The notes beneath the pieces were generated by a model that saw only the letters and a list, made by a program, of their open reading frames with translations, made no database searches and was not told where the DNA came from. From Sphingomonas phyllosphaerae 5.2 (GTDB lineage: Bacteria > Pseudomonadota > Alphaproteobacteria > Sphingomonadales > Sphingomonadaceae), in assembly GCF_000419605.1 (NCBI RefSeq), contig NZ_ATTI01000001.1, positions 121,001 to 185,000 of the forward strand: a stretch of 64,000 nucleotides of DNA, given 5' to 3'. Shown here in pieces: positions 20,443 to 54,082 of this stretch (position 1 is the stretch's first letter; each line of letters starts with the position of its first letter). A program made the translations under genes and the position numbers.

Positions 20443-22821
20443 TCAAGCGATTCGCTGGTCGGTGTCGTCGGCCTCCGCCGCGGCGGCGCGGCGCGCCGAC
20501 ACGGGGGCGGCGGGAAGGGGGGCGCCGCGCTGCTGCTGCTGCTGCTGGCGGTCGCCCTGCGGGGTCGCGCCACCGCTGCCGGTGCCGGCCGGGGCGTGCT
20601 GCAGCTTCAGTCCGCGCGCCTCGGCCATCTCGGTCAGCCGCGGCTGCGCATCGGCGAGCAGCGCGCGGGTCTGCGGCTGTTCGGCGGTCAGTTGCACCTG
20701 CACGCTGTCGCCGTCGCGACGCAGCGCGACGTCGATCGTCCCCAGTGCGTCGGGGACGACGCGGATGCGCATGTCGTTCGCGTCCGCCATGTCGCGCAAC
20801 TTCTCGATGTGCTGGATCATCGCACTCGGCCAATGCGGCTGGCGCATATCGAGCGTTTGCTGCTGCGCCTGGCCCGTCGCGGTGACGGCGGCGGTGGTGA
20901 GCGCCGCGGTCGCCTGCGGCTGCCCGACCGGCGCGGCGGCGTCGGCCGGGCGCGCGTGGTCGTCGGCAGTGACGGCACGGTGGATCGCCTCCGCAAAGGT
21001 GCGCGCGGCGCTCGCGATCACCGGCGCGGGCGGCTCGCCGGGCAGCGGCGCGGTCGCCGGCGTCGGCACGCGGCCTGGTTCGCGGGTGACCGCGGGCTCG
21101 GGCGCGACGATCGCGGCCTCCGGCGCAGCGGCGATCGGCGCCGCCGCTTGTGGCGTGACCGGCAGCGGTGCGTCGACGCGTAGCGGGGCGGCGGCGGCGA
21201 TCACCGGTGCGGCGGGCGCGGCCGGCACCGTCGCTTCGTGCGGAGCGGCGGGGCGCAACGGGGCTGCTGCGTCGGGTGCGATCGGAGCAGGCGTCGCGAG
21301 AGGAACGTCGGCGCGCAACGGTGCGGTCGTCGCGCGTGGCGCGGCGCTCGGCGAGAGACTCGCAGCCGCCGTGCCGTCCGTGCTCGCAACCGGGGCCGGC
21401 GCGGCGAGCGGGGCCGTCGTGGCGATCGGGGCGGTGGCCGCGAGAATCGTGCCGGCCGGTGCGGCGGCAGGGACGCCGGCGGCAGGCAGTGTCACGGCCG
21501 CAGCGGTGGCCGGGGGCAGGTCGACCACGATCGGCGCCGGTGCAACGCGGGCGGCAGTCGGAGCGGTGCTCCGATCGGTGACGGCCGGCGTCGCGCGTGT
21601 CGGACGCGAGGCGTCGGGGGTCGGGCGGCTGTCCACTGCCACTGCGGGAACAGGAGCGATGTCGGCCACGGCGACGATCGGCGCCCCCGCGATCTCCGGA
21701 CCGATCGGTGCGGTGGTCGGACGAGCGACCACGGTCGCGGTCGGCTCCTTCGGCGCAGGCCTGGCGCGATCGCTGCGACCTGCCACTGCCGGCGCCTCGG
21801 TGCGCGGCGTCGGCGAGGATGGCGTGCTCGCGCTCGTTGCAGTTCGCGGCGCGGTCGACGCCGCCGGGGCGTCGATACGGACCGGCGTCACCGGTGCGGG
21901 CTCGATCGCTGCCGGTGCCACCGCATCGGCCGGTTTGGGGAGCGGCGCGGAACCTCCAACAATTTTCGGCGTCACGGAAGCGTGGGCTGCGGGCGTGGGC
22001 GATGCCGCAATCTCCGCTGCCGGCGGCGTCCGGCTCGAGCGCACAGCGGCGGGCTGTTGCGGCACATCGGTCGCGGGCCGCGACGCGACGGCGGGGGCGG
22101 TGATCGGATCAGCGGGAGCGTCCGCCGGCGCGGGCGCCCGCGACAAAGTCGTCGCGTCGATCGCGACCGTGGCCGGGCGCGCGGTGGCGGGTGCCGGCAC
22201 GCCGGCATGCGCAGGCTTGTCGACGGCATCGATCGACTGCGACGATGCCAGTTCGGCAGCGACCGGTGCGTCGGGCGCTGTCGTCGGTCGCGGTGCCGGC
22301 GGGATCGTCACGTCGGCCATCGGCGGGACGGGAGCGGGGACGACCTCGGCGGTGTCGCGCGACGCTGGCTCGGCGGCGGCATCGTCCTTCACGGAGGGCG
22401 CGTCCTTCGCGGGCGCAGTGGCCGGCACGTCGGTCGCCGACACCTCCTTTTCGTCGGCCGGCAACTTCGCCACCAGCCGCAGCCGCGGCGTCACCGGTGT
22501 CGGCGCCATCGGCCGCTCGGGTATAACCGCCGGCGTCGGCGCCGGCGGCACCTCCACCCCGGTCGCGTCGGCGAGCCAGGCGAGCGCGGCGTCGCCGGCC
22601 GGGATCTCGGCATCGGCAAGCGGCAGGCCGGTGCCGGGGGCGGCAAGTTCCTGCCGGGCCGGGTCGGTCGCGCTACCAGCGGCAAGACCGTCGCCACAGC
22701 CGGGTACCAGCAGCTTCAGGAAGTCGCCCGCCGCGCCACCTGCGCCCGGCGCGTTGCCCGGGGCACCCGGCAGCATCGCGCCCGGCGCCGTCGTCGTCAG
22801 AAGGCTTGCGATCGTGGTCAA
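20443..22821 (-). CDS. fliK: FliK, hook-length control protein
   Basis: A 792-residue, strongly Ala/Pro/Thr-rich protein with a TTG start (MTTIASLLTTTAP). The centre is low complexity, as expected of an extended molecular ruler. The C-terminal switch domain is visible near residues 675-750: WPSAMIQHIEKLRDMADAND, IRVVPDALGTIDVALRRDGDSVQVQLTAEQPQTRALLADAQPRL. FliK measures the hook during export and triggers FlhB switching. At nearly twice the E. coli length (405) it is large, though its identity is clear. A sigma-54 promoter lies 28 bases before the start (predicted leader). Confidence 0.93.
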   Translation of the reverse strand: MTTIASLLTTTAPGAMLPGAPGNAPGAGGAAGDFLKLLVPGCGDGLAAGSATDPARQELAAPGTGLPLADAEIPAGDAALAWLADATGVEVPPAPTPAVIPERPMAPTPVTPRLRLVAKLPADEKEVSATDVPATAPAKDAPSVKDDAAAEPASRDTAEVVPAPVPPMADVTIPPAPRPTTAPDAPVAAELASSQSIDAVDKPAHAGVPAPATARPATVAIDATTLSRAPAPADAPADPITAPAVASRPATDVPQQPAAVRSSRTPPAAEIAASPTPAAHASVTPKIVGGSAPLPKPADAVAPAAIEPAPVTPVRIDAPAASTAPRTATSASTPSSPTPRTEAPAVAGRSDRARPAPKEPTATVVARPTTAPIGPEIAGAPIVAVADIAPVPAVAVDSRPTPDASRPTRATPAVTDRSTAPTAARVAPAPIVVDLPPATAAAVTLPAAGVPAAAPAGTILAATAPIATTAPLAAPAPVASTDGTAAASLSPSAAPRATTAPLRADVPLATPAPIAPDAAAPLRPAAPHEATVPAAPAAPVIAAAAPLRVDAPLPVTPQAAAPIAAAPEAAIVAPEPAVTREPGRVPTPATAPLPGEPPAPVIASAARTFAEAIHRAVTADDHARPADAAAPVGQPQATAALTTAAVTATGQAQQQTLDMRQPHWPSAMIQHIEKLRDMADANDMRIRVVPDALGTIDVALRRDGDSVQVQLTAEQPQTRALLADAQPRLTEMAEARGLKLQHAPAGTGSGGATPQGDRQQQQQQRGAPLPAAPVSARRAAAAEADDTDQRIA

Positions 22822-22859
22822 GGTGGGTCGCTTCCGTGCTCGGGGTCTGCGAGCATCTT

Positions 22860-22875
22860 TGCAAGGAGCGTGCCG
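22860..22875 (-). promoter_or_regulatory. Sigma-54 promoter for the fliK operon
   Basis: Minus strand reads CGGCACG-CTCC-TTGCA, matching the -24/-12 consensus TGGCACG-N4-TTGCW except for the first base. It lies in the 55-bp gap between the fliJ stop and the fliK start. Predicted transcription start is near 22849, giving a 28-base leader. It would restart transcription of fliK-L-M-N-O-P-Q-R-flhB-fliD-fliS independently of fliE-J. Confidence 0.87.
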
Positions 22876-28142: not shown

Positions 28143-28505
28143 TCAGACCGGCATGCTCATGATGTCCTTGTACGCGGACAGGATCTTGTTGCGGACCTGC
28201 AAGGTCGCCTCGAAACCGACCGACGCTTCCTGACGCGCCAGCATCACCTTGGCGATGTCGACGGTCTCGCCGCGCTCATATTGTTCCGACAGCGCCGACG
28301 CCTTCTGCTGGCCGTCGTTCACCTTGGCGATCGCGGTCTGCATCGTGTCGGCGAAGCTGGTGGCGCTGGCCGCGCCGCCGGTGGCCGAGGCAGGTGCGCC
28401 GGGTGCGGCGTTGCCGACGCGGTTCAGCGCGGCGTTGCGCTCCAGGATCTGCGCGCGCAGCGCCATCACGCGGTCGACGCCGCCGATGCCTCCGACGCCG
28501 CTCAT
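28143..28505 (-). CDS. fliE: FliE, MS-ring/rod junction protein
   Basis: A 120-residue protein with the FliE C-terminal signature SVGFEATLQVRNKILSAYKDIMSM and helical SFADTMQTAIAKVNDGQQKASALSEQYERGE. FliE joins the MS ring to the rod. First structural gene after the activator; its start overlaps the activator's stop by 4 bp. Confidence 0.94.
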   Translation of the reverse strand: MSGVGGIGGVDRVMALRAQILERNAALNRVGNAAPGAPASATGGAASATSFADTMQTAIAKVNDGQQKASALSEQYERGETVDIAKVMLARQEASVGFEATLQVRNKILSAYKDIMSMPV

Positions 28506-29773
28506 GCCGACAGCATCCGGCTGCTGCCGGCCGCCAGGTCGTCACCCTGCTCGCGCGCCTTGGCGAGGCGGTAGCGCAGCGTCCGCTCGGAGATGCCGAG
28601 GCGCTTGGCGGTCTCGATCCGGCTGCCGCCGCATGCCGCCAGCGTCTCGCGGATCGCCGCAAATTCGGAGAATTGCACGACCTGGCCCAGCGTGGCGTCG
28701 TCGCTGCCGGTGCCGCCCGGCGCCGGCTTCGCTGCGGAAGGCCGGTCGAACACGATGTGGCTCACCTCGATCGTGTCGCCGCCCGCGAACAGCAGCGCGC
28801 GCTGGATCACGTTCTCCAGCTCGCGGACGTTGCCGGGCCAGTCGTGCGCGATCAACGTCGCGATCGCCTCGTCGCTGGGCCATGGCACCACGGCGCGGTT
28901 GCCGGCGTGGCGCAGGATCATCGTCGCGGCGAGCGCGGGGATATCCTGCGGGCGATCGGCCAGCGACCGCGTCGCCAGCGGGAACACCGACAGGCGGTAA
29001 TAAAGATCGGCGCGGAAGCGGCCGGCCGCCACTTCGGCTTGCAGGTCGCGGTTGGCGCAGGCGACGACGCGCACGTCGACCGGCTGCGGCATGGTCGCGC
29101 CGATCGGCACCACTTCGCGCTCCTGGAGCACGCGCAGCAGCTTGGCCTGGAGGTTGAGCGGCATTTCCGCGACCTCGTCCAGCAGCAGCGTGCCGCCGTT
29201 GGCCGCTCGGAAGAAGCCCTCGCCGCCCGACGACGCGCCGGTGAACGCGCCCTTCTGGTGGCCGAACAGCATCGCCTCCAGCATCGTCTCCGGCAGCGCG
29301 GCGCAGTTGATCGCGATGAACGGACCGTCGCGACGCTCCGAATTCAGGTGGATCGTACGCGCCAGCACTTCCTTGCCGGTGCCGGTCGGGCCGTTGATGA
29401 GCACCGTGATGTCGGCCTGCGCGACCCGCTCGGCGAGCGCCAGCAGCGCCAGCGACTCGGGATCGGCGGCGGTCGGCAGCTCGGGGCCGCCGATCAGCGC
29501 GCGGGCGAAGGCGTTGCCGACGTCGGCGTCCTCGTGCCCGTAGGAGACGCGGGCCGGCTGGCCGTCGCGGTGCGGGATGACCTGCCGCCCGCTGTTGCCG
29601 ACGATCAACGTGCGCGCCGGTGCGGGCACCGCCTCGCCGTCGCCGACGAGATAGGCGACGTTCGGCTGCGGCCGCGCGGCTGGCGCCTGCACGGCGAAGC
29701 CCTGCGCGCGCAACGAGGACACGAGCGTCAGGTGCGCGCGTTCCACGGTGGCTGTCGGCATGATCGAACGCAT
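28502..29773 (-). CDS. flbD: FlbD-like sigma-54-dependent activator of flagellar genes
   Basis: A 423-residue bacterial enhancer-binding protein. The AAA+ domain has Walker A GPTGTGKE (128-135), the sigma-54-contact loop GAFTGA (175-180), GTLLLDEVAEMPLNLQAKLLRVLQE and NVRELENVIQRALL. The C-terminal Fis-type HTH is RIETAKRLGISERTLRYRLAKARE. The ~120-residue N-terminal region has no recognisable receiver motif (no DD pair, acceptor Asp or Lys), so control is unlikely to be by ordinary phosphorylation. Co-transcribed with fliE-J. Natural activator for the four sigma-54 promoters in this locus. The symbol reflects similarity of role to Caulobacter FlbD, not proven orthology. Confidence 0.88.
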   Translation of the reverse strand: MRSIMPTATVERAHLTLVSSLRAQGFAVQAPAARPQPNVAYLVGDGEAVPAPARTLIVGNSGRQVIPHRDGQPARVSYGHEDADVGNAFARALIGGPELPTAADPESLALLALAERVAQADITVLINGPTGTGKEVLARTIHLNSERRDGPFIAINCAALPETMLEAMLFGHQKGAFTGASSGGEGFFRAANGGTLLLDEVAEMPLNLQAKLLRVLQEREVVPIGATMPQPVDVRVVACANRDLQAEVAAGRFRADLYYRLSVFPLATRSLADRPQDIPALAATMILRHAGNRAVVPWPSDEAIATLIAHDWPGNVRELENVIQRALLFAGGDTIEVSHIVFDRPSAAKPAPGGTGSDDATLGQVVQFSEFAAIRETLAACGGSRIETAKRLGISERTLRYRLAKAREQGDDLAAGSSRMLSA

Positions 29774-31880: not shown

Positions 31881-31957
31881 CGTCATTGCGAGCGCAGCGA
31901 AGCAATCCAGCGCCGGACCACGACGCCCTGGATTGCGTCGCCGCGCTCGCAATGACG
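31881..31957. repeat. Dispersed palindromic repeat, copy 1 (full length)
   Basis: 77 bp: left arm starts CGTCATTGCGAGCGCAGCGA and ends AGCAATCCAG; the right arm is its inverse, starting CTGGATTGCG and ending CTCGCAATGACG. It can form a long hairpin. Four related copies are at 38651, 47812, 53785 and 61564, all intergenic. Confidence 0.88.
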
Positions 31958-32275: not shown

Positions 32276-33049
32276 TCACCGCTGCGCCATCGCCTTCTTC
32301 AGCTTGGCATGTGCCGCGCTCTTGATCTGGCAGACGCGCGCGGCGCCGATGCCGAGCACCTGGCCGATCTCCTCCAGGTTCAGCTCCTCGACGTGGTACA
32401 GCTGGATCACCAGCTGCTCGCGCTCCGGCAGCCCGGCGATCGCCGCGACCAGCCGGGTGCGGGTCTGCGTGTCGGCCAGTTGCTCGAACGCGTCGGGCTC
32501 GTTGCTGGCGAACCACGGCTGATCGTCGGCATAGACCTCGTCGATCGATTCGTACTTCACCGCCTCGGCGCTGGCATATTCGGTGCGCAGCTTCTCGGGG
32601 CTGATCTCCAGCCTCGCGGCCAGCTCGCGCTCGGTCGGGGCGCGGCCATATTCATGGCTCAGCTGGTTGACCGCGCGCGTATATTCGCGCTTCCGGCGGA
32701 TCGCGCCGCGCGTCATCGCCGCGTGGCGGCGCAGTTCGTCGATCATCGCGCCACGCAGGCGCGTGACCAGATATTGCTTCAGCGTCACCTGCCCGCGATC
32801 CTCGAAGGCGGCGACCGCCTCGACCAGCGCGACCAGCCCGACCTGCACGAGATCCTCGACCTCGATCGCGGTCGAGACGCTGCCATGGACGTGCCACGCC
32901 AGTCGCCGGACCAGCGGCAGGTGCTCGCGCACCAGCGCATTCTCGTCGCGCGCGCGGGCGCGCGGCTTGTAGGTGAGCGGCGCGCCGCCCCCCGGCATGG
33001 TCAGCGACTGGCCGTCGGCGAAGGCGTGCGGCATCGGTTCGGCGCTCAT
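32276..33049 (-). CDS. fliA: FliA, flagellar sigma factor (sigma-28)
   Basis: A 257-residue sigma-70-family protein. Region 2 has LVREHLPLVRRLAWHVHG, VEDLVQVGLVALVEAVAAFEDR and YLVTRLRGAMIDELRR. Region 3 has VNQLSHEYGRAPTERELAARLEIS. Region 4 has LPEREQLVIQLYHVEELNLEEIGQVLGIGAARVCQIKSAAHAKLKK. It reads late flagellar genes; its predicted target fliC lies 1 kb away. Start overlaps the flhA stop (ATGA), so sigma-28 is made with the export gate. It is held by FlgM (36382) until hook completion. Confidence 0.96.
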   Translation of the reverse strand: MSAEPMPHAFADGQSLTMPGGGAPLTYKPRARARDENALVREHLPLVRRLAWHVHGSVSTAIEVEDLVQVGLVALVEAVAAFEDRGQVTLKQYLVTRLRGAMIDELRRHAAMTRGAIRRKREYTRAVNQLSHEYGRAPTERELAARLEISPEKLRTEYASAEAVKYESIDEVYADDQPWFASNEPDAFEQLADTQTRTRLVAAIAGLPEREQLVIQLYHVEELNLEEIGQVLGIGAARVCQIKSAAHAKLKKAMAQR

Positions 33050-35109
33050 GCCGCCAGCGCCTGCTGCGGGGCCTGATTGCCGATGATCGCGACGACCTCG
33101 ACGGCCTTGTCCTCGGGGACTTCGAAGAAGCTCATGACGGGCGTATCCGGAAGAACGGTGCGGATGAGTTTGCGGATCGCGACGCGGATCGCAGGCTGGA
33201 CGACCAGCGCGAACGGCTTGGCCTCCGCGATCAGCGGCTGGGCCGCGGCTTGCAGCGCGTCGACGATGCGACGGCCGAGTTCGGGTTCGATGACGTGGCG
33301 GCCCGGATCGTTGCGCGCGGCCTGGCCGAGCAATTGCTCCAGCCCGCCCTCCAGCGTCATCACGCGCAGCGGCTCGCGCACGCCGGCCAGCTTGGCGATG
33401 ATGAGCGAACCCAGCTCGGGGCGGATCAGCTCGACGATCTCGGCGGGGTCGTGGCTGCGCTGCGCGGCGATCGAGATCGCGGCGGCGATGCGGCGGAACT
33501 CGCGCAGCTGGATGCCCTCGCCGAGCAGCCCCTTGAGCACGGTCGCCAGCGCCGTCAGCGGCAGCGGCGCGAGCGCGCCGACCAGCTGCGGCGCCCGCTC
33601 CTTCAATTCGTCGAGCAGCGACTGCACCTCGTCCGCGCCCAGCAGGTCGCCGGCGTTGGCGCCCAGCGCATGGTTCAGGTGCGTGGCGATGACGGTGCCC
33701 GAATCGACGACCAGATAGCCCTGACCGGTCGCGACGTCCGCGTCGCCGATCGAGATCCACGTCGCGTCCAGCCCGAAGGTCGGGTCCTTGGCCTTCTTGC
33801 CGATCAGCTCGCCGAAGCCCTGCCCGGTGTCCAGCGCCAGCATCTCTTCGGGCGACACCTGGTCCTCGCCGACGCAAACGCCGCCCAGCATCACGCGATA
33901 CGTATAAGGCGGCAGGTTGATGTCGTCGCGGACGCGCACCTGCGGCACCACGAAGCCGAGCTCCTTCGACAGCTGGCGCCGGACGCCGGTGATGCGCCCC
34001 ATCAACGGCGCGCCGCGGCGCTCGTCGACCAGCGGCACGAGGCCGTAGCCGATGTCGAGGTTGACCAGCATCGTCTCCGACACCTCGTCCCAGCCGATCT
34101 TGGAAGGATCGGGCGCCTCTACCGGCGCCGGCGGCTCGACCACGGGGGGGCGCTTGGCGATCTGGTGCAGCTTCCACGCGGAGAAGCCGGCGGCGGCGGC
34201 GAGCGGCAGGATGACGAAGTGCGGCATCCCCGGCAGGACGCCGAGCAGCGTCAGGATCACCGCGACGGGCGTCCAGGTGCGCGCCGAGCCGAACTGGCTG
34301 CCGATCTGCCCGGCGAGATCCTTTTCGGATTTCACGCGGGTGACGATGGCGGCGGCGGCGATCGACAGCAGCAGCGCCGGCACCTGCGCGACCAGCGCGT
34401 CGCCGATCGCGAGCATGGTATAGGTCTGTGCGGCCTTGGCGATCGTCAGCCCGTGGCTGACGGGGCCGAGGATCAGCCCGCCGACGATGTTGGCGGCGAG
34501 GATCAGCAGGCCGGCGACCGCGTCGCCCTTCACGAACTTGGACGAACCGTCCATCGAGCCGTAGAATTCGGCCTCGGTGGCGACGTCGACGCGGCGCTTC
34601 TTGGCCTCGTCGGGGGTGATCAGCCCCGCGTTCAGGTCGGCGTCGATCGCCATCTGCTTGCCGGGCAATGCGTCGAGGGTGAAGCGCGCGGACACTTCGG
34701 ACACGCGGCCCGCGCCCTTGGTGACCACGATCAGGTTGATGATGACGATGATCGCGAACACGAACAGGCCGACGACATAGTCGCCGCCGATCACGAACGA
34801 TCCGAACGCCTCGATCACATGCCCCGCCGCCGCCGAGCCGGTGTGGCCATGGACCAGCACGATGCGCGTCGAGGCGACGTTCAGGCCGAGCCGGAACAGC
34901 GTGGCGAACAGCAGCACGGTCGGGAAGGACGAGAAGTCGAGCGGCTTCTCGGCGTTCAGCGCGACCATCAGCACCGCGAGGCTGATCGTGATGTTCATGA
35001 TGAAGAACACGTCGAGCATGAAGGCCGGGATCGGCACGATCATGAGCACGACGAGCAGCAGGATCGCGGTCGGCAGGGCGCCCTGGCGCGCGGCGGCGAG
35101 AATCTTCAT
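33046..35109 (-). CDS. flhA: FlhA, major export-gate protein
   Basis: A 687-residue FlhA. The N-terminal ~320 residues carry about eight membrane helices and the FHIPEP-type region: VFFIMNITISLAVLMVAL, FPTVLLFATLFRLGLNVASTR, VTKGAGRVSEVSARFTLDALPGKQMAIDADLNAG. The cytoplasmic domain forms the docking ring for export chaperones. No flhF or flhG follows; fliA is next, overlapping by 4 bp. It lies 4 bp after the transglycosylase gene. Confidence 0.97.
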   Translation of the reverse strand: MKILAAARQGALPTAILLLVVLMIVPIPAFMLDVFFIMNITISLAVLMVALNAEKPLDFSSFPTVLLFATLFRLGLNVASTRIVLVHGHTGSAAAGHVIEAFGSFVIGGDYVVGLFVFAIIVIINLIVVTKGAGRVSEVSARFTLDALPGKQMAIDADLNAGLITPDEAKKRRVDVATEAEFYGSMDGSSKFVKGDAVAGLLILAANIVGGLILGPVSHGLTIAKAAQTYTMLAIGDALVAQVPALLLSIAAAAIVTRVKSEKDLAGQIGSQFGSARTWTPVAVILTLLGVLPGMPHFVILPLAAAAGFSAWKLHQIAKRPPVVEPPAPVEAPDPSKIGWDEVSETMLVNLDIGYGLVPLVDERRGAPLMGRITGVRRQLSKELGFVVPQVRVRDDINLPPYTYRVMLGGVCVGEDQVSPEEMLALDTGQGFGELIGKKAKDPTFGLDATWISIGDADVATGQGYLVVDSGTVIATHLNHALGANAGDLLGADEVQSLLDELKERAPQLVGALAPLPLTALATVLKGLLGEGIQLREFRRIAAAISIAAQRSHDPAEIVELIRPELGSLIIAKLAGVREPLRVMTLEGGLEQLLGQAARNDPGRHVIEPELGRRIVDALQAAAQPLIAEAKPFALVVQPAIRVAIRKLIRTVLPDTPVMSFFEVPEDKAVEVVAIIGNQAPQQALAA

Positions 35110-35113
35110 CGCG

Positions 35114-35980
35114 TCAGCGCCCCATGCCTGCGAGCATCATATAGGCCAGCCGCGCATTGTCGGGCGACGGGCGCAGCAGGCTGCCCTGCGCCGCCCGGCC
35201 GATCCCGACCTGACCTGCACCGATCTGGCCCAGCGTCGATTTCGCCCAGTCCATCGCGTCGCTGGCGCTCTGCCCGGTGCCGGTGACGACTGTGGCGTCA
35301 TCGCCCATCGCCAGCGCCTGCGCGGCGAACTGCCACTGGTTGTTGGCCTTGGCCGTGGCGCTGGCGTCCGATCCGCCGCCCAGCTTGTCGGCGAAGCGCT
35401 TGTAGACCTCCGACAGCGAGCGGGCCGAGCCGTCGCGCTCGTAGAAGACGCTGCGGTTGGCGCGCGCGGCGGCCGGAAAGACCGCGGCGGCGCTGCGATC
35501 CGGGCTCGCCTGCATCGCGGAGAGAAAGTTGCGCGCGCCGCCCAGCCCCAGGAAGTGCGCCATGTAGAGGTCGGTGCCGGTCGCCTCGCGGCCGGTGACG
35601 GCCTCGATCGCGCCCTTGTTGTCGCTGGCGTGCTCGGCGGCCATCAGCGCGGAGACGTCGGGGTTGTTGCGCAGCCCGAGGATCGCATCGCGGTTGCCGC
35701 CCGACACGGTGTAGCGCCCGCCCGACTTCTGGATGCTGTCGGCGGCCCAGCCAAGCCCGTGCTCCGAGCCGTGCTTCTTGACCACCGCCAGCCAGCTCTG
35801 GTCGAGGAACTGGTACAGCCCGGTCGCCGAGGACGTGCCCGAGCGCGCGCTGGCGTTCAGCCCGCTCTCCAGCTTCGCCTGGCCCATCAGATAGTCGAAA
35901 TCGACGCCCGTGCGCTGCGCGGCGCGCTGGATCGCGGAAGTGACCCGCTGGGTGGTGGAGGCGATCGCGGAAACGGTCAT
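35114..35980 (-). CDS. Flagellar-locus lytic transglycosylase (SLT domain)
   Basis: A 288-residue protein with an SLT-type lysozyme-like domain: the catalytic-Glu motif GQAKLESGLNASARSGTSSATGLYQFLDQSW, then a LYMAHFLGLGGARNFL segment. No signal peptide is visible; it may leave through the flagellar export gate or be inactive until secreted. As FlgJ here lacks a muramidase domain, this is the probable rod-associated peptidoglycan hydrolase (compare SltF in Rhodobacter). First gene of the flhA-fliA operon. The sigma-54 promoter is so close that the predicted transcript starts one base before the ATG. Confidence 0.87.
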   Translation of the reverse strand: MTVSAIASTTQRVTSAIQRAAQRTGVDFDYLMGQAKLESGLNASARSGTSSATGLYQFLDQSWLAVVKKHGSEHGLGWAADSIQKSGGRYTVSGGNRDAILGLRNNPDVSALMAAEHASDNKGAIEAVTGREATGTDLYMAHFLGLGGARNFLSAMQASPDRSAAAVFPAAARANRSVFYERDGSARSLSEVYKRFADKLGGGSDASATAKANNQWQFAAQALAMGDDATVVTGTGQSASDAMDWAKSTLGQIGAGQVGIGRAAQGSLLRPSPDNARLAYMMLAGMGR

Positions 35981-35991
35981 GCCGGCATAGC

Positions 35992-36007
35992 AGCAAGAGG
36001 CGTGCCA
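35992..36007 (-). promoter_or_regulatory. Sigma-54 promoter of the transglycosylase-flhA-fliA operon
   Basis: Minus strand reads TGGCACG-CCTC-TTGCT, a perfect match to TGGCACG-N4-TTGCW. The C of the -12 GC is at 35994, predicting transcription from 35982-35981, just before the ATG at 35980: an almost leaderless mRNA. Confidence 0.92.
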
Positions 36008-36033
36008 AGGTGAGCCGCGCGCCTGGAATCACA

Positions 36034-36058
36034 ACGCCCCGGGGGTGGGCCGGGGCGT
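36034..36058 (-). terminator. Terminator hairpin after flgN
   Basis: Perfect 9-bp stem ACGCCCCGG / CCGGGGCGT with a 7-base loop, 25 bp past the flgN stop on the minus strand and followed there by a T-rich stretch (TTGTGATT). It would end the second-stator-flgAMN transcript just before the next sigma-54 promoter. Confidence 0.7.
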
Positions 36059-36083
36059 CGTCACGTCAGCGATGGGGCAGGCG

Positions 36084-36395
36084 TCAGGCGTAGGCGATCG
36101 TGCCGCGCTGATAGGAATTGCCGGGCTGACCGGAAAGAAGTTGCAGGCGGCGGCGGACATTTGCCGCCATCAGGTTCACGTAGATGCGGCACGTGTCGTT
36201 CAGGCGATCCGCCTCTTCGACCAGCCCGCGCAGCTCCGGCGTCGCCGGGCCGTCGCCGAGCATCTGCAGCTCCTCGATCGCGCGCAGCTTGTTGCCGGTG
36301 GCGCGCTCCAGGGCGTTCATGTCGTTGCTCTTCAGCGCGGCGATCTCGGCATGAAGCATGTCGATCACGCGCACCAGCGCCTCACGCCTGTTCAT
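36084..36395 (-). CDS. flgN: FlgN-like export chaperone
   Basis: A 103-residue helical protein (MNRREALVRVIDMLHAEIAALK, NALERATGNKLRAIEELQML, CRIYVNLMAANVRRRLQLL). It matches FlgN, the chaperone for FlgK and FlgL, in size, helical heptad pattern and in following flgM. Start chosen at 36395; the frame is open upstream but that part is flgM read in another frame. Overlaps flgM by 14 bp. Confidence 0.82.
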   Translation of the reverse strand: MNRREALVRVIDMLHAEIAALKSNDMNALERATGNKLRAIEELQMLGDGPATPELRGLVEEADRLNDTCRIYVNLMAANVRRRLQLLSGQPGNSYQRGTIAYA

Positions 36396-36690
36396 TCTGT
36401 GACATCCAATCGTAGCGCAGGGCGATGAACTGATCCGCGATCGTCGAAGGCGACAGCGGGAACGTGCCATTGGCGAGCGCGGTCTTGATCTCCTGCACGC
36501 GGTCGGCATCGACCGGCGGCGCGGCCGCCATCGCGCTGGCCATCGCGCCCGGCGCCTGCGTCGCATCCGTGCCCGTCGACTTCGCCGCGGTCGCCATCGA
36601 CGCGACCGGGGCCGCGGCGCCGGCGCGCTGCACGTTCGTGACGGGCGCGATGCCCGCCCTGATCGTCGCTGATCCTATTGATTCCACCAT
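36382..36690 (-). CDS. flgM: FlgM, anti-sigma-28 factor
   Basis: A 102-residue protein. The N-terminal half is Ala/Thr-rich and probably disordered. The C-terminal sigma-binding part is VQEIKTALANGTFPLSPSTIADQFIALRYDW, the FlgM signature. It inhibits FliA until exported through the finished hook. ATG at 36690 preferred (AGG seven bases upstream); a GTG at 36696 is also in frame. Part of the sigma-54-driven flgA operon. Confidence 0.92.
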   Translation of the reverse strand: MVESIGSATIRAGIAPVTNVQRAGAAAPVASMATAAKSTGTDATQAPGAMASAMAAAPPVDADRVQEIKTALANGTFPLSPSTIADQFIALRYDWMSQNEQA

Positions 36691-36758
36691 GTCCACACCT
36701 GTCGCTTTCCGCTGACACCGGCAGAAACGACCGTTGGGGGTGTGGCTTTAGCAATTTT

Positions 36759-37274
36759 TTATTCCGGCCAGCCGGGCAGGGTCGCGCGGCCGGCGTCGAC
36801 GGCCACCGCCTGCACCGGGCGAACGGCGTCGGTGACGCGCACCATCACGCGTCCGCCCGGTGGCGCATCGGCCATCGCAACCCCCTCGCGCGTGATCGAG
36901 AAGCCGTCCGATCCCGCCTCGATCGTCACCGGATCGCCGCGCCGGATCACCGCCTCGGCGCGTGGCGCGGGTGCGGCCCCGCCGCTGCGCACGACGGCCG
37001 GCGTGACGCCGGCACTGGCGGCGCGCGGCGGTGCGATGACGGGGACGAAGACCCGCCACGCCGGGTCGGCGCAGGCGACGACGACGGCATCGTGCGCATC
37101 GCTGCGCCATGACAGCGCCACCATCGTGCAGGTGGCGAGCCGCAGCCGCGTGTCGACGGGCGCACGCGCACCGCCCTCGCTGCCGATCGGGCGCGTGGTG
37201 AAGGCGGCGACGGCACGGTCGATCGCGGCGGTGTCCTGAAAGGACAGCGATGCGGCGGCGAGCAGGGCGATCAT
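36759..37274 (-). CDS. flgA: FlgA, P-ring assembly chaperone
   Basis: A 171-residue FlgA. A short N-terminal signal (MIALLAAASLSFQ) leads to the SAF/FlgA core near residues 105-170: EAVIRRGDPVTIEAGSDGFSITREGVAMADAPPGGRVMVRV, ending QAVAVDAGRATLPG. It is a periplasmic chaperone for FlgI. The signal is shorter than usual. Start overlaps the motB-like stop by 4 bp (ATGA). Confidence 0.9.
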   Translation of the reverse strand: MIALLAAASLSFQDTAAIDRAVAAFTTRPIGSEGGARAPVDTRLRLATCTMVALSWRSDAHDAVVVACADPAWRVFVPVIAPPRAASAGVTPAVVRSGGAAPAPRAEAVIRRGDPVTIEAGSDGFSITREGVAMADAPPGGRVMVRVTDAVRPVQAVAVDAGRATLPGWPE

Positions 37275-37816
37275 CGGGTGGTTCCTTGGGGCTTGGCCTC
37301 GCCGGCGAAGGCGAGCGTGACGAGCACGGTGCGCGGGCCGCGCACGGGATTGGTGGACAGCAGCAGCCGCGCGTCCGGGATGCCGCCGGCCGCCAGCGCC
37401 GCGGCGACCGCGCGCGCGCGATCGGCGGCGAGCACGGTGGCGCTGTGCGTGACGGGATCGACGTCCTGCGCACTGCCATCGGTGTTGGCGGTGACGGTCA
37501 GCCGCACGCGCGGGTCGCGAAGCTCGCCGCGTGCCCAGGCGAGCAACGTGTCGGGGCGTTCCGGCAGCACCGCGGAACCGGGCGCGAAACCGGCGACGCC
37601 GTGGCTGGCGACGGGCATCGCCGCGGGCGGCGGCGCGTCGCCGAACGTCTCGGCGCCGAATCCCTTGGCGATGCCGCGTGCCAGGTCGCGCGGGTTGAGC
37701 GTCTGGTTGGCCTGGAGCAGAACGAAGAAGCCGACCAGCAGCAGCGCGAGATCGGCGAGCGTGATCAACCACACCGGGCGCGACGGCTGGACGTCGAGCA
37801 GATCGTCGTCGCTCAT
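37271..37816 (-). CDS. MotB-like stator protein (second stator set)
   Basis: A 181-residue protein with one N-terminal membrane helix (about 15-34) that holds the ion-channel Asp (LADLALLLVGFFVLL, Asp22). A periplasmic OmpA/MotB-type domain follows (LTVTANTDGSAQDVD, ADRARAVAAALAAGGIPDARLLL). It is much shorter than the canonical MotB at 48872 (300 residues), and the peptidoglycan-binding part is compact. Paired by a 4-bp overlap with the MotA-like gene. Confidence 0.82.
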   Translation of the reverse strand: MSDDDLLDVQPSRPVWLITLADLALLLVGFFVLLQANQTLNPRDLARGIAKGFGAETFGDAPPPAAMPVASHGVAGFAPGSAVLPERPDTLLAWARGELRDPRVRLTVTANTDGSAQDVDPVTHSATVLAADRARAVAAALAAGGIPDARLLLSTNPVRGPRTVLVTLAFAGEAKPQGTTR

Positions 37817-38511
37817 GCTGCGGCACCGTGCGTCGCCACGATCGCGACCGGCGGCTCGGCCTCGTGCAGCCGTACGCGCCCGTCGCCGCGCGGCGCCTCG
37901 CGCTCGGCGAGGTCGGTAAGCGGCGCGACGAGGCGCTCGCGCTCCAGCAGTTCGGCGCGCGCAGCGATACGCAGCCGCGCGGCGATCGGCATCGCGACCA
38001 GGTTGGCGAACAGCGCGCCATATAAGGTCGCCAGCAGCGCGACCGCCATCGCCGCGCCGATCGCCTGCGGATCGCTCATCCGCGTGAACATCGCGACCAG
38101 CCCGATCAGTGTGCCGACCATGCCCATCGCGGGCGCGGTCTCGGCCATGCCGGTCCAGCATTCGACGACGATGCGGTGGCGTTCGGCACGCTGGCGACGC
38201 GCGGTGTCGAGCGTCTCGCCAACCGTGCGCGGCGATGCGCCGTCGACGATCAGGGCGATCGCGGCGGCGACGTCGCTGTCGCGGATCACGCTGCGGTCCA
38301 GTGCGTGGACGCCGTGGCGCTGCGCGATCCGCGACAGCGCGGTGATCTGTTCCAGCCGCGGATCGGCGCGGAAGCGGCGGCGCGGCAGCGTCGCCAGCGC
38401 CAGCACGGCATGCGCCAGGTCGCGCAGCGGCGTGCGCAGGATCGTCGCCAGCATCGTGCCGCCCAGCACGATCGCCAGCGCGACGGGGTCGAAGAGAAGC
38501 GCGGGAGTCAT
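37813..38511 (-). CDS. MotA/PomA-like stator protein (second stator set)
   Basis: A 232-residue MotA/TolQ/ExbB-family membrane protein. It starts MTPALLFDPVALAIVLGGTMLATIL. The pore helices are in ETAPAMGMVGTLIGLVAMFTRMSDPQAIGAAMAVALLATLYGALFANLVAMPIAARL, which looks like the PomA/MotP branch rather than the E. coli MotA type encoded at 48003. Together with the MotB-like protein it could be a second stator of different ion preference. Driven by its own sigma-54 promoter, with the ATG at predicted +2. Confidence 0.85.
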   Translation of the reverse strand: MTPALLFDPVALAIVLGGTMLATILRTPLRDLAHAVLALATLPRRRFRADPRLEQITALSRIAQRHGVHALDRSVIRDSDVAAAIALIVDGASPRTVGETLDTARRQRAERHRIVVECWTGMAETAPAMGMVGTLIGLVAMFTRMSDPQAIGAAMAVALLATLYGALFANLVAMPIAARLRIAARAELLERERLVAPLTDLAEREAPRGDGRVRLHEAEPPVAIVATHGAAA

Positions 38512-38522
38512 ACCCTCGCCTG

Positions 38523-38538
38523 TGCAAGCGGCGGGCCA
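38523..38538 (-). promoter_or_regulatory. Sigma-54 promoter of the second-stator/flgAMN operon
   Basis: Minus strand reads TGGCCCG-CCGC-TTGCA, one base off the TGGCACG-N4-TTGCW consensus. The -12 C is at 38524, so transcription should start at 38512, one base before the ATG at 38511. The spacing to the ATG is identical to that of the site at 35992-36007. Confidence 0.85.
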
Positions 38539-38855
38539 AGTGCCTTTGCGGCGGCGGGGCGGCAGGCGACGGGGCCGGACGGCAACCGGATTGCCGGCAA
38601 CCGGCAAGCGCTTGCCGGTCGTCGGGGCGCCGTCTGGTTGACCCCGTAGCCGTTATCGCGAGCGCAGCGAAGCAATCCAGAGCCGGCTCGGGACGCCCCG
38701 GATTGCTTCGCTGCGCTCGCAATGACGGGCTGGTGCTCCGGTGGCGGACGACAAGACAGGACGGCGGCACGGTCGCCGGAGCCCCTGCCGCTACCGCCGT
38801 TCATGATCGCCATCGATCCGCCGGAATCGCGGCCGCCCCTGATCGCCGCGCCACT
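38539..38855. other. Gene-free spacer between divergent flagellar operons
   Basis: About 320 bp between two divergent sigma-54 promoters. It contains one full-length palindromic repeat (38651-38727). The remaining GC-rich sequence is where activator (FlbD-like) binding sites would be expected, but I could not identify a convincing repeated site by eye. Confidence 0.6.
38651..38727. repeat. Dispersed palindromic repeat, copy 2 (full length)
   Basis: 77 bp, same length and layout as copy 1. Left arm begins CGTTATCGCGAGCGCAGCGA; the right arm ends GCTGCGCTCGCAATGACG. Arms pair almost perfectly around GAAGCAATCC / GGATTGCTTC. Confidence 0.88.
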
Positions 38856-38871
38856 TGGCACGCACCTTGCT
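38856..38871 (+). promoter_or_regulatory. Sigma-54 promoter of the flgB-L operon
   Basis: TGGCACG-CACC-TTGCT is a perfect match to the -24/-12 consensus. Predicted start 38882, giving a 31-base leader that contains the AAAGGAG ribosome site of flgB. Confidence 0.93.
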
Positions 38872-38912: not shown

Positions 38913-39266
38913 ATGGCCGAGGGATTGTTCGGAGTTCACGCTGCCGCGCTGGAGGTGCGTTCACAGCGCATGGGCGTGCTGGCGTCGAACATCGCCAATG
39001 CCTCCACCCCCAATTTCAAGGCGCGCGACATCGACTTCACGACCGCGCTGAACGCGGTCGAAGGCCAGCCCGCCGGCACCGTCGGCGCCGATCTGGGCGG
39101 GGCGGTGAAGTATCGCGTGCCGACCAGCCCGTCGATGGACGGCAACACCGTCGAGCTGTCGACCGAGCAGACCGCCTTTGCCGAGAATGCCGTCCAGTAT
39201 CAGACGACGCTGTCGTTCCTGAACGGGCGCATCGGGCAGATAACCCGCGCGCTGAAGGGGGAATAA
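38913..39266 (+). CDS. flgB: FlgB, proximal rod protein
   Basis: A 117-residue rod protein. The shared axial-protein motif is VRSQRMGVLASNIANASTPNFKARDIDF near the N terminus; the C-terminal helix is ENAVQYQTTLSFLNGRIGQITRALKGE. It is preceded by a clear AAAGGAG site. First gene of the rightward rod-hook operon. Confidence 0.96.
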   Translation: MAEGLFGVHAAALEVRSQRMGVLASNIANASTPNFKARDIDFTTALNAVEGQPAGTVGADLGGAVKYRVPTSPSMDGNTVELSTEQTAFAENAVQYQTTLSFLNGRIGQITRALKGE

Positions 39267-47811: not shown

Positions 47812-47887
47812 CGTCATTGCGAGCGTAGCGAAGCAATCCAGGGTGTCCGATCCGGCTCTGGAGCGCTTCGCTGCGCTCGCAACGACG
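47812..47887. repeat. Dispersed palindromic repeat, copy 3 (full length)
   Basis: 76 bp: left arm CGTCATTGCGAGCGTAGCGA, ending AGCAATCCAG; right arm ends GCTGCGCTCGCAACGACG. Lies between flgL and motA. Confidence 0.87.
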
Positions 47888-53736: not shown

Positions 53737-54082
53737 CATCCGGTCCAGGGCCGATCGACATCCAGCCGGTTCCCCTCCAAGCGCCGTCATCGCGAGCGTA
53801 GCGAAGCAATCCAGCGTTCCGCACTGCCTCGGCACCTCGAATTGACGCGTGGGGGGGCAAGACTGCCGGGGGGAGCGCGGTTCGCCCGAACAGATCGACG
53901 ATCTTCATTTGCGCGCAGTCCGGCACCCACGGAAGCACTGGTTGTCGATCCCGCCTGGATGGGCTGCGTGCCCGGCGTCGTGGGCGGATCGTGCGGGGCT
54001 GACCGGTCGCCGTCGTCGCGTGGCATCGCGATCAAGGCCGGGGCGCTTCGCTTGGCCGGCAATGGCGGCTAGGCTCCCGGAC
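53737..54082. other. Gene-free spacer with repeat copy 4
   Basis: About 346 bp between the DMT transporter and the GNAT gene. It contains a decayed palindromic repeat (53785-53847). The rest shows no credible ORF, hairpin or promoter that I could recognise. Confidence 0.6.
53785..53847. repeat. Dispersed palindromic repeat, copy 4 (right arm decayed)
   Basis: Left arm complete (CGTCATCGCGAGCGTAGCGA...AGCAATCCAG). The right arm is reduced to fragments ending TCGAATTGACG, so this copy can no longer form the full hairpin. Confidence 0.75.

Follow-up and report, generated by a model that had tools for sequence, protein, structure and literature searches.

Can a sigma-54 promoter set the start of a flagellar transcript on the start codon itself, so that no leader is left in front of the first gene? 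The question is raised by a 64,000-nucleotide stretch of DNA from Sphingomonas phyllosphaerae 5.2 (contig NZ_ATTI01000001.1, positions 121,001 to 185,000; the window, in the following). In it, two minus-strand operons in tandem, motA-motB-flgA-flgM-flgN (38511-36084) and slt-flhA-fliA (35980-32276), each carry a sigma-54 -24/-12 element directly in front of their first gene, which encodes a MotA-like protein (motA) in the one and an SLT-domain protein (slt) in the other. An earlier note on this DNA, which had named these operons flgAMN and flhA-fliA after part of their genes, had proposed that both mRNAs are leaderless. We consider it likely that both operons are transcribed by sigma-54 RNA polymerase from a point at or near the A of the AUG and are translated in a leaderless manner. 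Leaderless mRNAs at both operons are a prediction supported by the geometry of the promoters and by its conservation, which in the case of motA carries far more weight than a pair of sites from a single genome.

Sigma-54 sites and start codons of the two operons

The distance from the -12 C of a sigma-54 site to the first base of the start codon is called d, and C+n denotes the nth base past this C. At slt, the site TGGCACGCCTCTTGC occupies 36007-35993 of the minus strand and is followed by the ATG at 35980; before motA, the site TGGCCCGCCGCTTGC occupies 38538-38524 of the same strand and the ATG lies at 38511. Counting along the sequence gives d=13 in both cases, as had been claimed. The GG and GC dinucleotides of TGGCAC-N5-TTGC are present at fixed spacing in both sites. 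With up to one mismatch, 30 pattern matches were observed against 25.3 expected, which by itself is weak evidence; as such counts alone do not prove promoters, the sites are credible because they are conserved in relatives (Table 1). A weight matrix trained on relatives identified four high-scoring sites in the window, with the -12 C at 35993 (slt), 38524 (motA), 38870 (flgB) and 22861 (fliK), and the next-best matches reached about half the score of the weakest of the four. flgB (38913) is divergent from the motA operon. On recounting, the predicted leaders of fliK (TTG at 22821) and flgB were again 28 and 31 bases long.

Both start codons, which the earlier note had described as fitting family alignments, withstand closer inspection. 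The open reading frame of slt contains no in-frame ATG, GTG or TTG between the last stop codon and the ATG, and the SLT protein of nearer relatives starts with MTV at the corresponding position. In motA the frame offers a single earlier start codon, TTG at 38607, which lies upstream of the promoter and therefore outside any sigma-54 transcript, while residues D8 and A11 of the protein are invariant in 20 aligned homologues, which argues against a later start.

Spacing of promoter and start codon in relatives

The window genome belongs to the genus Sphingomonas, and its loci were compared with those of 80 relatives (of 265 with an slt match; the nearest ones are over-represented), giving 81 loci with the window. 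Regions of 4.7 kb were taken per relative, apart from one where the contig breaks off and the region measures 1.4 kb. Counts for motA and flgB refer to 79 of the 81 loci; L031, cut off by the end of its contig, and L067, in which the gene was not found, are left out. For motA and slt the nearest in-frame ATG at or beyond C+11 was assigned as start, and GTG only where there was no ATG, a rule by which ATGs before C+11 and some GTGs are skipped.

Comparison of these loci established the sites, the start codons and a fixed spacing at motA. The assigned start codon lies at C+13 to C+16 in 78 of the 79 loci (d=13 in 36, 14 in 34, 15 in four and 16 in four). An ATG in any frame occurs at C+13 to C+16 likewise in 78 of 79 loci, compared with 2.6 in shuffled sequences, a count that serves as a guide only, the sequences being related; a chance origin of the spacing was rejected on these numbers. 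The two sets of 78 loci differ slightly, in that one short-spacing gene uses GTG and the C+13 ATG of G283 is out of frame. Among the 79 spacers before motA 73 distinct sequences were found, and the N-terminus of the protein has seven lengths, with 7-15 residues ahead of the invariant D in 20 aligned proteins. Since both vary, it is the distance that is conserved, and neither the DNA nor the protein. A further, named collection gave d=13-15 in 17/17 Sphingomonas-type loci, of which two are not labelled Sphingomonas and at least six are already in the first set.

Outside the genus, a site at d=14-15 was present in only three of 20 upstream regions of MotA-like genes from other genera or families (G525, G534 and G570, of three genera, which hold the best-matching MotA-like proteins outside the genus). 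The other 17 had no site placed in this way, and an order-wide trait was rejected on this ground. In 17 of the 20 regions flgB adjoins the MotA-like gene; L202, L204 and L206, which lack flgB, may hold other MotA-type genes. A general habit of sigma-54 promoters was likewise rejected by a class-wide pattern search, which is a weak control (114 genomes, TGGCACG sites only, whether promoters or not) and showed no peak at d=13-14; the trait therefore looks special to this lineage. In a group of loci from other Sphingomonadaceae genera (L194-L201, L203, L205, L207-L210), flgB is divergent from motA and no sigma-54 site precedes motA. By eye, palindromes adjoin the start codon and are in many cases accompanied by a Shine-Dalgarno-like sequence; this suggests a promoter swap before motA in these genera. 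The promoters also differ in sequence. In 85% of the 79 motA promoters TGGCC replaces TGGCA, and in 75% an A follows TTGC; the flgB and slt promoters read TGGCA without exception, and 86-90% of them continue with T behind TTGC.

At slt two states of the spacing were found among the 81 loci, a short one (d=13 in 11, 14 in 12, 16 in one and 17 in one) and a long one (d=30-47 in 56). The conservation of the 13-base spacing, which the proposal would lead one to expect at both operons, was thus found at motA, and slt shows it only partly; its loss among relatives, which the earlier note had named as speaking against its proposal, applies to most of them at slt and not at motA. A tree was built from MotA, FlgB and the N-terminus of SLT by a quick method, 24 of its 76 inner branches being weak; on it the short state requires at least six changes, three of them forced by well-supported branches alone. 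Twenty of the 24 short-slt rows on the tree fall into a single mixed clade of 25 rows, the window's own, in which the five leadered rows have d of 39-40; G099, G003, G016 and G259 stand elsewhere. Among the Sphingomonas loci examined, the leaderless state would be the usual one at motA and would alternate with a leadered state at slt.

Transcription start, ribosome sites and competing explanations

The position of ATGs relative to the promoter points to a lower edge. No ATG in any frame occurs at C+7 to C+12 of the motA loci or at C+9 to C+12 of the slt loci; at C+13 their number rises abruptly. Such an edge would be predicted if RNA synthesis starts at C+12 or C+13 and the transcript has to include the start codon. 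Of the 79 flgB loci compared, 66% carry C at C+12 and 70% carry G at C+13. At motA, a C immediately precedes the ATG in 54 of 70 genes with d=13 or 14 and gives a pyrimidine-purine step. The C-G step of flgB suggests transcription from C+13, i.e. from the A of the AUG where d=13. The first base of the mRNA is on this account likelier to be this A than the base before it, which the earlier note had favoured.

The start codon was ATG in 102 of 103 short-spacing genes, including both in the window. With G283 added to these, ATG was used in 103 of 104 genes against 113 of 134 leadered slt and flgB genes (Fisher test, p 5e-5, a guide only, since the rows are related); flgB starts were assigned by a nearest-codon rule, and one of the 79, unclassified, was excluded from the 134. 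Leaderless initiation reportedly relies on AUG (PMC3616915). A Shine-Dalgarno sequence, defined as pairing with the 16S tail of -4.5 kcal/mol or lower in the region -18 to -5, was found in 94% of flgB genes, in 14% before motA (17% in shuffled sequences, and so not above chance) and in 0% of short-spacing slt genes. Leadered slt genes reached 45% against 33% in shuffled sequences, little above chance, and the contrast in ribosome sites therefore rests on flgB.

As we infer the mechanism, a flagellar enhancer-binding protein, probably that encoded at 28502-29773, would activate sigma-54 RNA polymerase at both operons, in the case of motA probably via palindromes of the form CGGCAA-N4-TTGCCG. 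The first transcribed base would be the A of the first AUG or lie one or two bases earlier at most, and a ribosome-binding site would therefore not be transcribed. Ribosomes would bind the 5'-terminal AUG directly to begin translation, which could pass on to later genes via the ATGA stop-start overlaps present at motA/motB, motB/flgA and flhA/fliA.

Several observations weigh against a leaderless start at the AUG. Most relatives have the long spacing at slt (56/81). One locus breaks the rule at motA, G283 (L059), whose ATG lies at C+33; a repeated stretch upstream of the gene shifts the ATG there and leaves the one at C+13 out of frame, which makes this locus a test case provided by nature. 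One short-spacing motA starts with GTG, and L101 has an in-frame GTG at C+12. In the window itself, motA has GAGGG one base 5' of the ATG, which is too close for a normal ribosome site and outside the region -18 to -5, and flgB lacks the C-G step at C+12/C+13 and has CG at C+11/C+12 instead. ATGs in any frame occur at C+2 to C+6 of motA and at C+3 to C+8 of slt, and these are untranscribed only if the start rule holds; in seven close relatives an in-frame ATG at C+5 of slt stands beside one at C+14. In-frame GTGs at C+24 to C+26 of five leadered slt loci, which also have ATGs at 39-41, lie inside the empty zone, and the gap in the spacing therefore depends on preferring ATG. In the class-wide search, d=13-14 occurred in nine of the 150 rows listed from a longer list, against about 10 for a flat spread. 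Lastly, a covarying inverted repeat spans the predicted +1 of leadered slt relatives, with stems of at least five in 29 of 56 loci compared with 4.1 in shuffled sequences. Its 5' arm starts at C+3 to C+9 in 28 of the 31 loci with a stem, its 3' arm ends at C+20 to C+29, and its loop is often GAACA-like; the repeat is not above chance in short slt (1/25 against 2.8 in shuffled sequences) or motA loci (6/79 against 6.7).

If this repeat acts as RNA, either transcription starts upstream of C+12 or the hairpin is relevant in read-through RNA. In the former case, sigma-54 transcripts would start earlier than the +12 rule has it, at about C+3 to C+8, and carry a leader of 5-10 bases without a Shine-Dalgarno sequence. 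A hairpin needs both of its arms transcribed, and the in-frame ATG at C+5 in seven slt loci would also fit, but the flgB hairpin begins at C+12 to C+15 in 30 of the 42 loci with a stem, as expected for a hairpin at the 5' end, and the jump of ATGs at C+13 after the empty C+9 to C+12 fits a start at C+12 or C+13. Moreover, the distance from -12 to +1 of sigma-54 promoters is set by the polymerase, and we regard such an early start as improbable.

That the mRNAs in translation are made from a promoter further upstream or by read-through of flgN into slt, which would leave the sigma-54 geometry of little import for translation, is also unlikely in our view. slt does lie downstream of flgN, on the same strand and about 100 bases away; the next gene upstream of motA, however, is flgB on the opposite strand. 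Even a longer transcript would contain no Shine-Dalgarno sequence above chance before motA, and the fixed spacing of motA would be left unexplained. As for the start codons, we give very little credence to the idea that they are misassigned and that translation begins at later codons preceded by a ribosome site. Such a start could be supplied by an in-frame GTG that some loci, including the window, have at C+55 or C+56 of motA, but other loci lack it and the invariant D8 and A11 lie upstream of it; at slt, the MTV start of nearer relatives argues against it. The account that we prefer remains a sigma-54 transcript starting at or near the AUG.

Why such a state would be kept can be addressed only tentatively. 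One possibility, which we think rather doubtful, is that two states are permitted, either no leader at all or one long enough to hold a ribosome site or 5' hairpin, intermediate lengths being selected against. Leaderlessness would then be kept at motA and reached repeatedly at slt because flagellar assembly has a control step in leaderless translation itself, which involves 70S entry and responds to growth state and to the balance of initiation factors.

Known systems, probable activator sites and further features

Sigma-54 flagellar promoters are classical. Those of flaN and flbG of Caulobacter are served by ftr sites and give mRNAs with leaders, unlike the two Sphingomonas operons, which are predicted to be leaderless. 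In other respects the operons resemble flaN/flbG with their FlbD-type activators, namely in the -24/-12 promoter, an AAA+ activator, activator sites that also lie downstream, and divergent units (PMC3096577). Leaderless mRNAs are frequent in Alphaproteobacteria: 375 were described in Caulobacter crescentus, where they are translated as efficiently as leadered ones (PMC4117421), 171 in Sinorhizobium meliloti (PMC3616915) and 192 exact ones in Bradyrhizobium, with an extended -10 motif (TGnTA) upstream (PMC4842269). With those of Caulobacter and S. meliloti the Sphingomonas mRNAs would share a 5' end at the AUG, here predicted, and the lack of a Shine-Dalgarno sequence, but in the available parts of these reports none is tied to a sigma-54 promoter (PMC4117421, PMC3616915). 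The Bradyrhizobium authors state that no specific promoters had been described for leaderless genes (PMC4842269), and start-site mapping in Leptospira found both leaderless mRNAs and sigma-54 motifs, the two not being linked in the available text (PMC5243855). Where the start-site maps, as far as available, name a promoter, leaderless mRNAs are tied to the extended -10 motif. No report of a sigma-54 promoter yielding a leaderless mRNA was found in the literature searched, although supplementary tables lay outside the search and single cases are possible. Within that literature, the combination in one operon of these two known features appears to be new.

The leadered promoters of flgB, fliK and, in other Sphingomonas, slt have the same element, lie in the same cluster and probably respond to the same activator; they differ in having leaders, about 18-43 bases long in the loci examined, and flgB in most loci also has a strong ribosome site and frequently a hairpin at the 5' end. 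At motA a sigma-54 promoter with a rigidly set start appears to keep one operon leaderless throughout a genus, and slt, an orthologous neighbour, seems to switch between leadered and leaderless states among close relatives, a natural experiment on the purpose of leaderless translation with motility as an easy read-out. The spacing also bears on the annotation of start sites in Sphingomonas flagellar genes.

Table 1. Positions of promoters, genes and putative regulatory sites in the window.
Feature	Positions	Strand	Basis
Sigma-54 -24/-12 element, motA operon (TGGCCCG-N4-TTGC)	38524..38538	-	site with <=2 mismatches in 79/79 gene-bearing loci
Sigma-54 -24/-12 element, slt operon (TGGCACG-N4-TTGC)	35993..36007	-	site with <=1 mismatch in 81/81 loci
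Predicted transcription start, motA operon	38511..38512	-	predicted; -12 C + 13 = A of ATG, 38511
Predicted transcription start, slt operon	35980..35981	-	predicted; A of ATG = 35980
MotA/ExbB-family protein, 232 amino acids, first gene of operon	37813..38511	-	Pfam PF01618 3.3e-22
MotB-like protein	37271..37816	-	MotB_plug 5.3e-5, OmpA 1.7e-4, both below cut-offs; ATGA overlap with preceding stop
FlgA	36759..37274	-	Pfam; start overlaps preceding stop
FlgM, anti-sigma-28	36382..36690	-	Pfam
FlgN-like	36084..36395	-	Pfam 30.4 bits, cut-off 30.5
SLT-domain protein (lytic transglycosylase-like), first gene of operon	35114..35980	-	Pfam PF01464 1.1e-4, barely past cut-off
FlhA	33046..35109	-	Pfam
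FliA-like sigma factor	32276..33049	-	Pfam sigma-70 regions 2-4; start overlaps flhA stop; name FliA from context
Sigma-54 element of flgB, leadered control promoter, d=43	38856..38870	+	pattern and weight matrix
FlgB	38913..39266	+	Pfam
Sigma-54 element of fliK, leadered control promoter	22861..22875	-	weight matrix
Sigma-54 enhancer-binding protein (AAA+ and HTH_8), likely activator	28502..29773	-	domain matches
Enhancer-like palindrome CGGCAA-N4-TTGCCG, putative	38602..38617	.	pattern
Second enhancer-like palindrome, putative, about two helical turns from the first	38580..38596	.	pattern

One match to RpoN was found in the genome. The enhancer-binding protein at 28502-29773 is the candidate for the activator of these operons, and further sigma-54 activators are encoded elsewhere in the genome. 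Palindromes of the form CGGCA-N4..8-TGCCG were found in 78 of 79 motA-flgB intergenic regions, at 5.4 per kb compared with 0.13 in nearby DNA, and are probably activator sites, to which the candidate protein may bind. Between 22641 and 38580 of the window no match to this pattern was found, hence none near slt. The palindromes are often paired about 21 bases apart and also occur at 22621 and 22641 inside fliK, downstream of the fliK promoter.

Two kinds of repeats were observed besides. The inverted repeat of slt is found among L056-L110, and a similar one was seen by eye in the fliK leader near 22837-22855 of the window. A dispersed palindromic repeat with GATTGCTTCGCTGCGCTCGC arms, in pairs about 43 bases apart, lies at 38658-38720, 31888-31950, 47819-47880 and 53792-53811; one copy falls into the motA-flgB intergenic region, and eight matches with up to three mismatches were counted compared with 0.05 expected.

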